Part shown: one piece after another, positions 51,986-55,586 of the stretch
How the letters are laid out: each line of letters begins with the position of its first letter
Position numbering within the stretch: the stretch's first letter is position 1
DNA from: Akkermansia biwaensis
Lineage (GTDB): Bacteria; Verrucomicrobiota; Verrucomicrobiia; Verrucomicrobiales; Akkermansiaceae
Direction: 5' to 3'
DNA: 64,000 nt
Assembly (NCBI RefSeq): GCF_026072915.1
Contig: NZ_AP025943.1
Span: forward strand, 2,728,001-2,792,000
Program-made: the position numbers and the translations under genes
Notes under the pieces: generated by a model
The model's input: the letters and a program-made list of their open reading frames with translations, nothing else
Databases searched by the model: none
What the model was told of the DNA's origin: nothing

Positions 51986-52615
51986 TCAGCTGCCGGCAGT
52001 CTCTTCCTGAAGCAGCGCTTTTACCGTTTCCGGTTCACCGCGTAAAACGGCGTTTTCCAGAGGAGTCCGGCCTTCCTTGTTCCGGATGGAAGGATCAGCC
52101 CCGGCATTCAGGAGAATGGCAAGCTCTTTCTCGTTCCGGTGGTAGTGCAGGGCCGTATTGCCCTGGTTGTCCTGCATGTTGGGATCGGCCCCGTTTTGCA
52201 GGCACCATTCCAGAAGTTCCTCGGAAAGTGAGCGGTTCAAAATGGGAAAGGATGAAAGGTCGGCTCCTTGTTGGCGCACCCATATGAGCAGCATTCCCTG
52301 CGTTTTGACATCGTCCGGAAGGGAGGCTTCAAGAATGCCTGCCAGTGCCGCATTCAGTTCATTCCTGTCTGCGCGGTAATTTCCTGTATTGATGCGGCGC
52401 AGGGATTCGACAAGAGAATGGTGAGTTCCGCCCGTCCGGGTGTGGAACATTTCAATCCTCCGCGCGATCTGGGTGTCCCGCGGCCTCCTTTCATATTCCC
52501 GCCACCAGCTGGCTCCCTCAACAACCAGAGCCACCAGAATTCCTGCGGCCACCCATTTTCTGGCCCGGGAAGTTTTCTGAGCAGGCGGGGAATAGGAATC
52601 CGTTTTGAAAATCAT
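51986..52615 (-). CDS. ankyrin-repeat membrane-anchored protein
   Basis: A 209-residue protein with one N-terminal membrane segment (about residues 21-38, WVAAGILVALVVEGASWW) and at least three C-terminal ankyrin-type units (LLEWCLQNGADPNMQDNQGNTALHY; LAILLNAGADPSIRNKEGRTPLENAV; LRGEPETVKALLQ). The middle is helical. Ankyrin repeats bind protein partners; the partner is unknown. Its first 17 codons are duplicated, with the start codon changed to ATA, 2.8 kb away next to icd, which shows that the two genes were once direct neighbours. Confidence 0.88.
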   Translation of the reverse strand: MIFKTDSYSPPAQKTSRARKWVAAGILVALVVEGASWWREYERRPRDTQIARRIEMFHTRTGGTHHSLVESLRRINTGNYRADRNELNAALAGILEASLPDDVKTQGMLLIWVRQQGADLSSFPILNRSLSEELLEWCLQNGADPNMQDNQGNTALHYHRNEKELAILLNAGADPSIRNKEGRTPLENAVLRGEPETVKALLQEETAGS

Positions 52616-52799
52616 TCTGTCTTGATGCCATTTTTTTCACGTCTTGTCCACTCATCAATAAGGGCCGTTCTTCCCGCTGGAAAAACGGCCCCGGTTGAGA
52701 TGGATAATACCGTGTTCAGCTCAGTGCTTCCACCAGCCTGTCTCCAAAGGCGGAGCAGGAGAGTTCCGTGGAGCCGGGAATCATTTCCGCAGACAGGAT
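52553..52799. repeat. direct repeat copy 1 (ankyrin 5' end plus icd 3' remnant)
   Basis: About 240 bases, roughly 96% identical by eye to 55347-55586. It covers the start of the intact ankyrin gene, a hairpin at 52662-52690, and a remnant of the icd 3' end encoding its last residues (stop codon near 52716). The icd remnant ends at a CATTTCCGC motif followed by GACAGGAT, which fits a small deletion between two such motifs present in intact icd (near 55578 and 55679). Confidence 0.85.
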
Positions 52800-53014
52800 T
52801 CAAATTTGCAGGCTCTTTGTTCCGAATGAAAAGAATTGATGTTTAATTATTTATAATCAATAAATGTATTTTTTATTCCCTTTTCATAACATTTATTTTC
52901 CGCTTGATTCCTGCATTGTTTTAACCTTTCCTCTCATGTTCCGAAGGATGATTGGACAACGCATTAAACGTGTTGATAGGCTCAGGGAAGGTCGTCAGGC
53001 TACCGGAAGACTGA
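52800..53014. other. AT-rich lead-in of the inserted segment
   Basis: About 215 very AT-rich bases (TTTAATTATTTATAATCAATAAATG and similar) at the left edge of the insert. A frame with MFRRMIGQRIKRVDRLREG runs through it out of phase with the next gene and could be the frameshifted N-terminus of that gene, but this is not provable by eye. Confidence 0.45.
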
Positions 53015-53419
53015 TTGGTTCAGGCTTTCGTTCCTCTACAGTTGTCCATTGTGGATACTGCGGACTTGTTGAGAGGAAGAATAAGAGTCGGCTTGAAAAA
53101 TATCAGCGGAAATGTGGTCAGGCTTCCCGATGTGATTGACGATCGTACGTCGGATTTCTTTTTCTACACAAGCTTGCAGGCCGGGAGGACCTACCGATTG
53201 AATTCCAGGGTAGGGAAAATCACCTTCTCTCAAGAGTTGCCATGTCTTGAGCTGTCTCCAGGAGAAGAATACAGGTTTGACATTCCCGTCGATATTTCCC
53301 AAATTTCCGAAAAATTGATGAAAGGGCAATCCGCTGAATTGGAAATGCTCTTCTGCAACTGGCATGGAACGGGATGTTTCCATGGCGTTCTGGAAACAAC
53401 CGAGTCCGTACTTTTATGA
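53015..53419 (+). CDS. small hypothetical protein, possibly 5'-truncated
   Basis: A 134-residue frame that opens with TTG directly after an in-frame TGA, with no signal peptide. Its pattern (LRGRIRVGLKNISGNVVRLPDVIDD, then LELSPGEEYRFDIPVDIS) parallels the next protein (FPDFTLVFTNKSRKEVRLLD, then VLKPGIPFQVPI), so the two appear to be tandem paralogues with a beta-sandwich fold. The missing export signal suggests that the true N-terminus was lost or frameshifted. Its stop overlaps the next start (ATGA), so both are likely co-translated. Confidence 0.55.
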   Translation: MVQAFVPLQLSIVDTADLLRGRIRVGLKNISGNVVRLPDVIDDRTSDFFFYTSLQAGRTYRLNSRVGKITFSQELPCLELSPGEEYRFDIPVDISQISEKLMKGQSAELEMLFCNWHGTGCFHGVLETTESVLL

Positions 53420-53925
53420 AAAAACTTCTTCTTCCCTGCCTGATCCTGTTGACCTGCCTCCCGTCTTTTGGAGGCGGATTCAACTTTTGGCCGGAGAGCA
53501 AGGAGGTGGAATGTTCCGTTGTTCTGGCATCCGAACCTGTCGAGGCGGGCAAGCCTTTTCCGGATTTTACCCTGGTCTTTACCAATAAAAGCCGGAAAGA
53601 AGTGCGCCTGCTGGACAGCTTCTATCCTTCAAAATGTCTGAAACCGGATATCATTCTGGAGATATGGGATGGAGAAGCCAGAGAAATGGCTTATTACTGG
53701 GCGCGTTACCGTGTTGAACGCAGTGTAGAGAACACGAAGTTCGCCGTGTTGAAGCCCGGGATTCCCTTCCAGGTTCCTATCCGGGGGTTTGCGAAACATG
53801 TCATTTATCACCATCCCTTGGAAAGGGGGAAGAAGTATTTGATGAAAGTGACTTACCGGGACGGTTACGGCACACCGGGCCGTTCGGTAGGATACGTAGC
53901 AAGGAAGGAATTTGTGACAAAATGA
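53416..53925 (+). CDS. exported hypothetical protein, paralogue of the preceding gene
   Basis: A 169-residue protein with a signal peptide (MKKLLLPCLILLTCLPSFGG) and a beta-rich body (CSVVLASEPVEAGKPFPDFTL; NKSRKEVRLLDSFYP; LERGKKYLMKVTYRDGYG) of the kind seen in small immunoglobulin-like exported proteins. No known family is recognised. The start is chosen by ATGA overlap with the previous stop and by the signal peptide. It is followed by a strong terminator. Confidence 0.72.
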   Translation: MKKLLLPCLILLTCLPSFGGGFNFWPESKEVECSVVLASEPVEAGKPFPDFTLVFTNKSRKEVRLLDSFYPSKCLKPDIILEIWDGEAREMAYYWARYRVERSVENTKFAVLKPGIPFQVPIRGFAKHVIYHHPLERGKKYLMKVTYRDGYGTPGRSVGYVARKEFVTK

Positions 53926-53974: not shown

Positions 53975-54189
53975 ATGGAAAGAAGGCTCCACCTTCTACC
54001 CTGGAATCAGAAGGTACACAAGCTTTGCTCAACTGCTATAGCCAGTTAAGCTACGCAAAAGGAGGCATGAACACGATGAAGTGCGGGCATATATTGGAGG
54101 CTGGCTCAAGGAGAAACACATGGGACAAGTTGATGGATATCACGACAGTTGCGTCTTGTTTTTTATAAGTACGCATTTATATTTATATC

Positions 54190-55269
54190 ATGTCATTATT
54201 GGAAAAATGGAAATTGTTGTTGCTCCTCCCATTCCTGTTCTTTGCCGGTATGCAGGAGATAAAGGCAGACAGTCCAAATGCCCCTCTCATGAATGAAGAG
54301 CAAATCATCTCCTGCCAGCAGGGCAACATGGAAGTTCTCTCTTCCTATCTGGGATCTGGCAATATGGTCGTCATGGCCTGTGTGTACAAGGCTGAATGGG
54401 AGCCTCCCTCTTCCAAAAACGGCAAGGGAAAGCTGACCTCATATGCCACTGTTGTCAGGTCGCCGCATCGAGACTTCCCGGTGGGAGCTAAAATAAGATG
54501 GATAAATTACATGGAGGAGGTCAGTGACATTCCCAAGGAGACGCTTGACCAGTGGCAGTCACTGGCAGGCAAGCTAATTTATATCATCAATCCCTGGCGG
54601 AAACTACAAAAGGAAGAAGGGGATATAGCCACCGCACAAGATGGCACCGAAGAAATATCGTACAGTTTCAACTTTCCTATTGCCGATCACACCTACTATA
54701 ATAATTTGCGGGCTGTGCTGGACATCCCGGTTAAAACTGCCTCCTCTCCTCCCCGCGTAGCTACGCAGGCGGAGATTGACAATGACCATGATAATTTTCT
54801 CCGTGGGACAGCCCGGAAATTACGTCAAAACGACGTGGTCCTGGCTGTTATTATTTACAAATATGTAAGTACCGACCAGGGAACGACGTTTTACGCTCGT
54901 GTCATTCAATCTCTCCGGGGGGACATTCCGGTGGAAGCTCTGGTCAAGTGGACCAGTCCATATCAGAAACTGCCTGCGGGCAGTCCTCCGGTAACAAAAA
55001 CAACTCTCAGTTGTTACTTAACGTATGTTCTCTCTGAGTCAAAGAACGTGAAAGAACTGGGGGAAGATCCAGAGGACTTTAAACCTGCATCCACCGTATA
55101 TTCCTCACAGGTACTGCTGGGAGCCTACGATCTGGGTAATCATGTTGATTATTTCCCCATGACGGAGAGTGACCCGGGCCGTGCCATGAAAAAGCTCCTG
55201 CATATTGAACCGGCAAAAATTACCGCCGAATCGGAAGCAGCCCGCTTTAAACCGGAATCCGGCAAGTAG
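54190..55269 (+). CDS. exported hypothetical protein with internal duplication
   Basis: A 359-residue protein with a signal peptide (LLLLLPFLFFAGMQEIKA). Two halves are related: residues 59-136 (MVVMACVYKAEW, YATVVRSPHRDFPVGAKIRW) and 215-282 (DVVLAVIIYKYV, YARVIQSLRGDIPVEALVKW). The shared pattern, VV-x-A-x-x-YK then YA-x-V then D-F/I-PV-x-A-x-I/V-K/R-W, suggests a duplicated beta-barrel-like domain similar in layout to NTF2/OB-type exported modules, but no family is recognised. It lies inside the repeat-bounded insert and is less GC-rich than its surroundings. Confidence 0.72.
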   Translation: MSLLEKWKLLLLLPFLFFAGMQEIKADSPNAPLMNEEQIISCQQGNMEVLSSYLGSGNMVVMACVYKAEWEPPSSKNGKGKLTSYATVVRSPHRDFPVGAKIRWINYMEEVSDIPKETLDQWQSLAGKLIYIINPWRKLQKEEGDIATAQDGTEEISYSFNFPIADHTYYNNLRAVLDIPVKTASSPPRVATQAEIDNDHDNFLRGTARKLRQNDVVLAVIIYKYVSTDQGTTFYARVIQSLRGDIPVEALVKWTSPYQKLPAGSPPVTKTTLSCYLTYVLSESKNVKELGEDPEDFKPASTVYSSQVLLGAYDLGNHVDYFPMTESDPGRAMKKLLHIEPAKITAESEAARFKPESGK

Positions 55270-55346
55270 CCTGGTTTTCATCCCTTGCTTCCATTTTGGA
55301 AAAAGGAGGGGTGTGATTCTTTATCAAAGAATGTCCGGTTTCTTGG

Positions 55347-55586
55347 CATTTCTTGGTCCGCGGGAGGTTTTCTGAGCAGGCAGGGAATAGGAATCCGTTT
55401 TGAAAATTATTCTGTCTTGATGCCATTTTTTTCACGTCTTGTCCACTCACAACAAGGGGCCGTTCTTCCCGCTGGAAGAACGGCCCCGGTTGAGATGGAT
55501 AATACCGCGTTCAGCTCAGGGCTTCCACCAGCCTGTCTCCAAAGGCGGAGCAGGAGAGTTCCGTGGAGCCGGGAATCATTTCCGCA
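55347..55586. repeat. direct repeat copy 2 (ankyrin remnant plus intact icd 3' end)
   Basis: Second copy of the repeat at 52553-52791. Here the ankyrin part is the remnant (start codon ATA instead of ATG, then cut off) and the icd part is intact. The hairpin GGGGCCGTTCTTCC/GGAAGAACGGCCCC at 55456-55487 is perfect in this copy and has one mismatch in copy 1. Confidence 0.88.
55456..55487 (-). terminator. icd hairpin terminator
   Basis: A perfect 14-base stem with a four-base loop, 23 bases past the icd stop on the minus strand. No T-run follows, so it may work with other factors or as an mRNA 3' stabiliser. Confidence 0.6.

Follow-up and report, generated by a model that had tools for sequence, protein, structure and literature searches.

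A decayed cassette array between the ankyrin and icd genes of Akkermansia biwaensis, probably a displaced orphan immunity islet

The window considered here is the whole 64,000-nucleotide stretch from the one-contig 3.18-Mb genome of Akkermansia biwaensis (G000, C1:2728001-2792000), in which an ankyrin-repeat gene and icd are separated by ~2.55 kb of inserted DNA lying between two copies of a direct repeat. The insert contains two cassettes, each with the remnant of a putative effector gene followed by an intact candidate immunity gene, and its left edge carries a decayed half of tRNA-Pro(CGG). The features are arranged as follows, with positions counted along the window.

51986..52615, minus strand: intact ankyrin-repeat gene, 209 amino acids (aa), Pfam Ank_4 at 3.5e-16
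52566..52791, no strand: direct repeat copy 1, covering the ankyrin 5' end, a hairpin and the icd 3' end, with weaker homology from ~52553
52716..52791, minus strand: icd 3' remnant of 76 bp in copy 1
52780..52799, plus strand: left joint, composed of ATCATTTCCGC, one base and GACAGGAT; 19 of 20 bases agree with icd 55677-55696, counted by eye
52789..53029, plus strand: cassette leader, found again as far as 53029 at 70-77% in 5 loci (7 places) and partially in 5 more loci
52792..52831, minus strand: decayed, att-like tRNA-Pro(CGG) 3' half, matching at 30 of 40 bases, against 23 of 40 for the second-best site of the window
53015..53419, plus strand: gene 1, the last 128 codons of a 543-aa effector with an HEEHH motif, 89% to residues 413-543
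53416..53925, plus strand: gene 2, intact 169-aa protein with an apparent signal peptide, candidate immunity gene, 88-93% in aa to the gene after the 543-aa effector in genomes G064, G065 and G016
53936..54007, plus strand: terminator-like hairpin region after gene 2, also in genome G036
54009..54152, plus strand: Tae4-like amidase effector remnant with both ends deleted (blastn to locus L183 9116-9259, 1.4e-7; tblastn to the G059 effector, 3.9e-6)
54190..55269, plus strand: gene 3, intact 359-aa two-domain protein with an apparent signal peptide, candidate immunity gene, with homologs directly after Tae4-like effectors in loci L183 and L187
55361..55586, no strand: direct repeat copy 2, with weaker homology from ~55347 and the ankyrin ATG changed to ATA
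55511..56764, minus strand: intact icd
55677..55696, plus strand: icd-internal ATCATTTCCGCG-GACAGGAT, the proposed crossover core, whose exact form recurs in G067 and G036 and in the icd loci of 4 of the 7 other species scanned

A preliminary description of this DNA had proposed direct repeats of ~240 bp built from an ankyrin-icd junction. A repeat search resulted in one ungapped direct repeat of 226 bp (52566-52791 versus 55361-55586), 95% identical with 11 differing columns, and the weaker homology reaches left to ~52553/55347. The second-ranking repeat family in 50-58 kb is only 34 nt long and overlaps the same pair, so the 226-bp match is not due to chance, and the repeat bounding the AT-richer insert is confirmed as real. 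The DNA between the copies has a GC content of 46.8% versus 63.8% to the left and 58.8% to the right, in agreement with the less GC-rich insert described earlier. As also described, copy 1 joins the intact 209-aa ankyrin open reading frame to the 76-bp icd remnant, and in copy 2 intact icd is connected with a shortened ankyrin start whose ATG has become ATA. An assembly artefact is very unlikely, because the right joint is independently present in G036 and the window genome is a single contig. A transposon origin is not favoured either, as the longest inverted pair, joining the two copies, is their common hairpin, although no search was aimed at transposases; we know of no transposase that a 226-bp target duplication would fit.

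The genus search set comprised 76 genomes including G000, one genome per species, and a full-length ankyrin gene was found in two of them, G000 and the sister species G067 (98% identity). G067 bears a single ankyrin-icd junction (L171 10704-10929), to which both repeat copies correspond: window 48002-52791 aligns to L171 6140-10929, and 55361-60000 to L171 10704-15350. Since one junction maps to both copies, G067 represents the empty site, which bears out the proposal that the two genes were once neighbours and that foreign DNA came between them.

A different insert of ~2.2 kb was found in G036, with a right joint to icd identical to that of the window. The G036 ankyrin gene is reduced to 3' and 5' scraps flanking this insert, and the left joint corresponds to window ~52325 joined to 53936. 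In the G036 insert, a terminator-like hairpin and a tRNA half together with a leader accompany a 319-aa PA14-Tae4-like gene (Pfam Tae4 3.5e-7 and PA14 1.5e-5, both above the Pfam cut-off) and a 201-aa gene resembling the second half of gene 3. About 20 kb from it on the same contig (G036 C102:10788-11802) lies a second effector fragment with a gene-2-like neighbour. The ankyrin gene was not found in the corresponding interval of seven further species, which is nearly empty in G060 and G061, holds a 147-172-aa gene in G016, G062, G063 and G064, and holds a 373-aa gene in G059. The gene content of the cytochrome-icd interval (window 51946-55511; L176, L177, L179, L180, L181, L185, L186), next to a core gene, varies from species to species.

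The cassette leader takes up the first 240 bp of the insert on the left and opens with the decayed tRNA half. All or most of window 53032-53989 matches G064, G065 and G016 at 90-92%, and in these three genomes a 543-aa HEEHH-motif protein precedes the gene 2 ortholog. Whole copies of this protein in G064 and G016 are 97% and 91% identical to that of G065, and its PA14 match falls below the Pfam cut-off in the two copies tested (G065 and G064). The spacing from leader to gene is ~1.27 kb longer in the three relatives than in the window; the window has therefore lost the start of the effector and all but 128 codons, the gene 1 start and ~1.27 kb being deleted near 53029/53032. No pattern match of the HEEHH effector was obtained in IMG/VR.

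Relatives of the lost effector persist elsewhere in G000, near-full-length at 50% (2044298-2045929) and 52% (2805574-2807205), and a broken scrap of it lies at 2043537-2043728. Because the two near-full-length HExHH relatives remain, gene 2 may count as an orphan only toward its close effector, of which a 131-residue tail (89%) is left. The 52% relative, ~14-16 kb past the window end, is followed by two tandem genes distantly similar to gene 2 (35-42%; G000 C1:2805574-2808364).

Synonymous divergence (dS) of gene 2 from G064, G016, G065 and G081 is 0.125-0.137. Five flanking genes, which among these four genomes were compared in G064 and G016, reach 0.43-1.03 to G064, G016, G063 and G062 and 0.59-1.23 to G059 and G060. 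A dS so far below that of the flanks points to horizontal spread of gene 2. The dS of the gene 1 fragment is 0.17-0.39. Pairwise ratios of nonsynonymous to synonymous divergence (dN/dS) to the window, in which branches are not separated, are 0.31-0.46 for gene 2, 0.13-0.17 for the gene 1 fragment and 0.16-0.25 for gene 3.

In the second cassette, a Tae4-like remnant of ~145 bp stands immediately before gene 3, and the order of gene 2, Tae4-like effector and two-domain gene 3 is preserved whole in G081. No Tae4-like effector was detected in G000 or G067 at a threshold of E 1e-5; gene 3 is an orphan in this search, because G000 has only the remnant. The Tae4-like effector had no match in GenBank phage records. 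On two IMG/VR contigs (L259 6779-9283 and L260 6701-9284), the two gene 3 halves are separate adjacent genes after a Tae4-like effector, and the next gene of L259 gives a partial tail-fibre match. By this comparison, window gene 3 is a fused form of the two genes seen apart in L259 and L260. A gene of the gene 3 kind also occurs in G067, adjoining a very long open frame that appears RHS/YD-like by eye and contains a 172-residue serine run (L172 6750-12001).

The whole proteins most similar to the lost HExHH effector are encoded at tRNA-Pro(CGG), flanked by 50-nt repeats of the 3' half of the tRNA. Calls of tRNA genes were made with ARAGORN, and extra halves were scored as matches to the last 50 nt of tRNA-Pro(CGG). 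The tRNA was found in 7 of 16 loci screened by ARAGORN, all seven carrying cassettes; five of the nine loci without it in reach carry cassette genes as well (L172, L174, L183, L187 and L190). A scan set of 15 tRNA-Pro loci from 15 genomes (seven fetched for cassettes, eight for the tRNA match) contained nine extra 3' halves in eight loci, seven of them matching at 48-50 of 50 nt, one at 41 and one at 38. An extra copy of the first 27 nt of the tRNA was absent from all 15, where this part was found in the tRNA itself only. Further halves are present in G081 on another contig (49/50) and in G036 at icd (42/50). No cassette adjoins the tRNA-Pro of G062; the cassette of G061 has no half at threshold, and a partial half was aligned there separately.

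In G081, a 446-aa tyrosine integrase (PF00589, 2.4e-7) and phage tail genes lie beside tRNA-Pro, and phage early genes lie past the cassette on a separate contig; the two contigs likely form one prophage at tRNA-Pro(CGG). The loci concerned are L263 8199-9801, with the tRNA-Pro and the whole integrase, and L183 8405-17615, with the Tae4-like cassette and the phage early genes. Next to the tRNA in G000, G016 and G065, the first 56 codons of this integrase are found again (93-95%), with a second G065 copy beside the second tRNA half, so that 4 of the 15 tRNA-Pro loci contain the integrase or its remnant (remnant in three, whole in G081). As these 56-codon remnants recur there, the tandem cassettes at tRNA-Pro are best regarded as remains of integrase-bearing elements, and the closest of them look like decayed prophage cargo. 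In locus L184 of G065 (6371-12862), two decayed integrative elements stand in tandem at tRNA-Pro(CGG). Each has the tRNA or a half of it and a 56-codon remnant of the integrase, besides a leader, an HExHH effector and an immunity candidate. Tae4-like cassettes among phage genes without a tRNA half were found in G060 and in two IMG/VR contigs.

The left joint connects this tRNA home with icd. The decayed tRNA half in the window starts with GACAGGATTC, and GACAGGAT is common to the tRNA half and to icd, where it lies 186 bp from the gene end. Copy 1 ends with ATCATTTCCGC and one base; 102 bp deeper in icd, ATCATTTCCGCG is followed by the same GACAGGAT. By our own reckoning, the chance of an 8-nt register match after the 11-mer is ~4^-8. 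The simplest reading of the joint would be a crossover at GACAGGAT and then a deletion between the 11-mers, by which an icd remnant of probably ~186 bp was shortened by 102 bp. A direct joint at 52791 without the icd GACAGGAT is possible, but it requires an 8-nt coincidence in register.

Taken together, the insert is probably displaced and decayed mobile cargo that recombined via GACAGGAT into icd and now likely constitutes an orphan immunity islet. From the homologies, the joints, the empty site and the intact and broken frames, we infer the following order of events and mechanism of joining. Mobile cargo of two effector-immunity-like cassettes, the first with its closest whole relatives at tRNA-Pro(CGG), would have been linked to icd by recombination at the 8-mer GACAGGAT, present both in the tRNA half at the cassette edge and in icd. 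The other side of the array would have joined the ankyrin start, leaving icd intact and two copies of the stretch from the icd 3' end through the hairpin to the ankyrin start. The left icd remnant would then have lost 102 bp by deletion between two ATCATTTCCGC repeats. Both effector genes would have been gutted during this history and both immunity candidates kept whole, and the present function would most likely be protection against neighbours still carrying the effectors, which are presumed to be antibacterial. The signal peptides of genes 2 and 3 were read here by eye. The exported-protein genes of the preliminary description belong to effector-immunity-like cassettes, and it missed this nature of the genes, their tRNA-Pro link and the decay of both effectors. 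Its suggestion that the repeats could allow excision finds no support for the present day, as the copies differ at 11 of 226 positions and have not been homogenised recently.

How the array reached icd may be explained in several ways. A tRNA-Pro integrase could have taken icd as a secondary site with GACAGGAT as the core, splitting icd; recombination with an intact copy at the ankyrin start would later have repaired icd and cut out what remained of the element. This explanation, which is offered tentatively, accords with the exact 8-bp identity with the tRNA half, the element ends falling within that half, the whole integrase beside tRNA-Pro in G081 and the use of the icd 3' end by e14 (PMC6379469); yet the insert has neither an integrase nor an int-side att, 8 bp may also suffice for illegitimate recombination, and a second event is required. 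That the tRNA-Pro(CGG) integrase of Akkermansia elements also uses GACAGGAT in icd, as a natural off-target, is rather doubtful.

Recombination between alleles is a possible route as well, though not one to be held with confidence: the array would first have replaced the ankyrin body, giving a G036-like arrangement, and such DNA would have entered a G067-like cell, by way of a circle or by homology-facilitated illegitimate recombination; homologous exchange would have taken place in icd, and the joint would have formed at GACAGGAT. A circle carrying the same junction, as envisaged in the preliminary description, is one of several routes to this anatomy. At five sites within the repeat, copy 1 has the base of G067 and copy 2 that of G036, and no site shows the reverse, but the sites are few and the other six differing sites do not show the pairing, copy 2 being private at five and agreeing alone with G036 at one. 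The right flank of G000 is G036-like from 55361 to ~56093 (29 of 45 informative sites versus 133 of 352 beyond; permutation p 0.0085), although agreement is patchy along the flanks, and gene 3 is strongly diverged from its G036 counterpart. In E. coli conjugation tests, the duplication product appeared in 56 of 60 clones, with 14 sequenced duplications of 109-950 bp (PMC3240628). The site patterns mildly favour recombination between alleles. A third route is a single replicative event in a common ancestor during which the template changed twice, from icd to the array and from the array to the ankyrin start; deletion would afterwards have removed copy 1, the first cassette and the body of the ankyrin gene from G036. 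The insert and the flanking duplication would arise at once, and the G036 left joint is readable as a deletion. This seems unlikely, since G067 must then have split off before the event or have lost the insert again, and G000 is nearer G067 than G036 in site sharing (174 versus 111 on the left, 235 versus 162 on the right).

Apart from the route, the exported genes might be ordinary secreted proteins unrelated to toxin defence, with the effector remnants as accidental neighbours. The missing database family matches of genes 2 and 3 suit this idea, but in several loci the relatives of each immediately follow an effector-like gene, which makes it improbable.

Several observations weigh against the orphan immunity islet. 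Genes 2 and 3 are candidate immunity genes by virtue of homologs encoded directly downstream of whole effectors in other loci. Searches with them gave nothing in Pfam up to E 1, nothing in PDB below E 0.1 and nothing in NCBIfam or PHROGs. Both near-full-length HExHH relatives in G000 adjoin a gene-2-like gene, and the gene 1 fragment, with a dN/dS of 0.13-0.17, may be functional or recently truncated. Gene 3 shows a dS of 0.80 to its G036 counterpart, with flanks at 0.09-0.16, and therefore the cassettes at this place were exchanged or are not one vertical pair. Tae4-like and HExHH genes also occur at places other than tRNA-Pro in several genomes. Neither an integrase remnant nor an int-side att lies in the insert, and the G081 integrase has no match in the window, consistent with the earlier statement that no integrase is visible. 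The sheath family PF05943, the one family by which the type VI secretion system (T6SS) was tested, was not found in G000, so that delivery by this system is not supported; it was not found in G016, G036, G059-G067 or G081 either. PF05943 is present in 13 of the 76 genus genomes (such as G007, G010 and G013), so that the family occurs in other Akkermansia lineages rather than in the species nearest the window.

Orphan immunity arrays are known from the T6SS clusters of Vibrio cholerae, and they (PMC5361080) resemble the window in the loss of the effector with retention of the immunity gene, in a conserved upstream part common to the cassettes and in the invocation of illegitimate recombination. 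Different from the Vibrio arrays as described there, the window genome has no T6SS sheath match, the closest relatives lie at tRNA-Pro with att-like halves and integrase remnants, and the copy lies at icd. Orphan immunity genes in a gut bacterium are likewise shared with the Bacteroidales (PMC12247911); unlike those, the window islet has no recombinase, and its two genes lack a database family match. A recombinase gene within the cluster, the mark of rAID systems, was not found, as the G081 integrase has no match in the window and three insert open reading frames have no Pfam match.

The analogy with E. coli e14, raised in the preliminary description, proved apt. According to PMC6379469, e14 leaves a 163-bp icd' duplicate, and in both cases the icd 3' end is duplicated, with a remnant on one side and the intact gene on the other. 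Unlike e14 as portrayed there, the window has no integrase match or phage genes between the repeats, the repeat includes the ankyrin start, and a tRNA-Pro half forms the edge of the cassette.

Little seems to have been written on effector-immunity competition in Akkermansia, and a literature search resulted in no recognisable description of such effector-immunity arrays in this genus. If the tRNA-Pro(CGG) integrase did use GACAGGAT in icd as an off-target, element-borne effector-immunity cargo could leave its home tRNA via icd and become a stable immunity islet, and an e14-like icd duplication would have been reached by a different route. The genomes offer a readable series from an empty tRNA site, through a tRNA with a whole integrase and tandem decayed cassettes, to a displaced islet with its effectors decayed and its immunity candidates kept, which makes testable both how immunity genes outlive their toxins and how effectors are delivered where no T6SS sheath gene is found.

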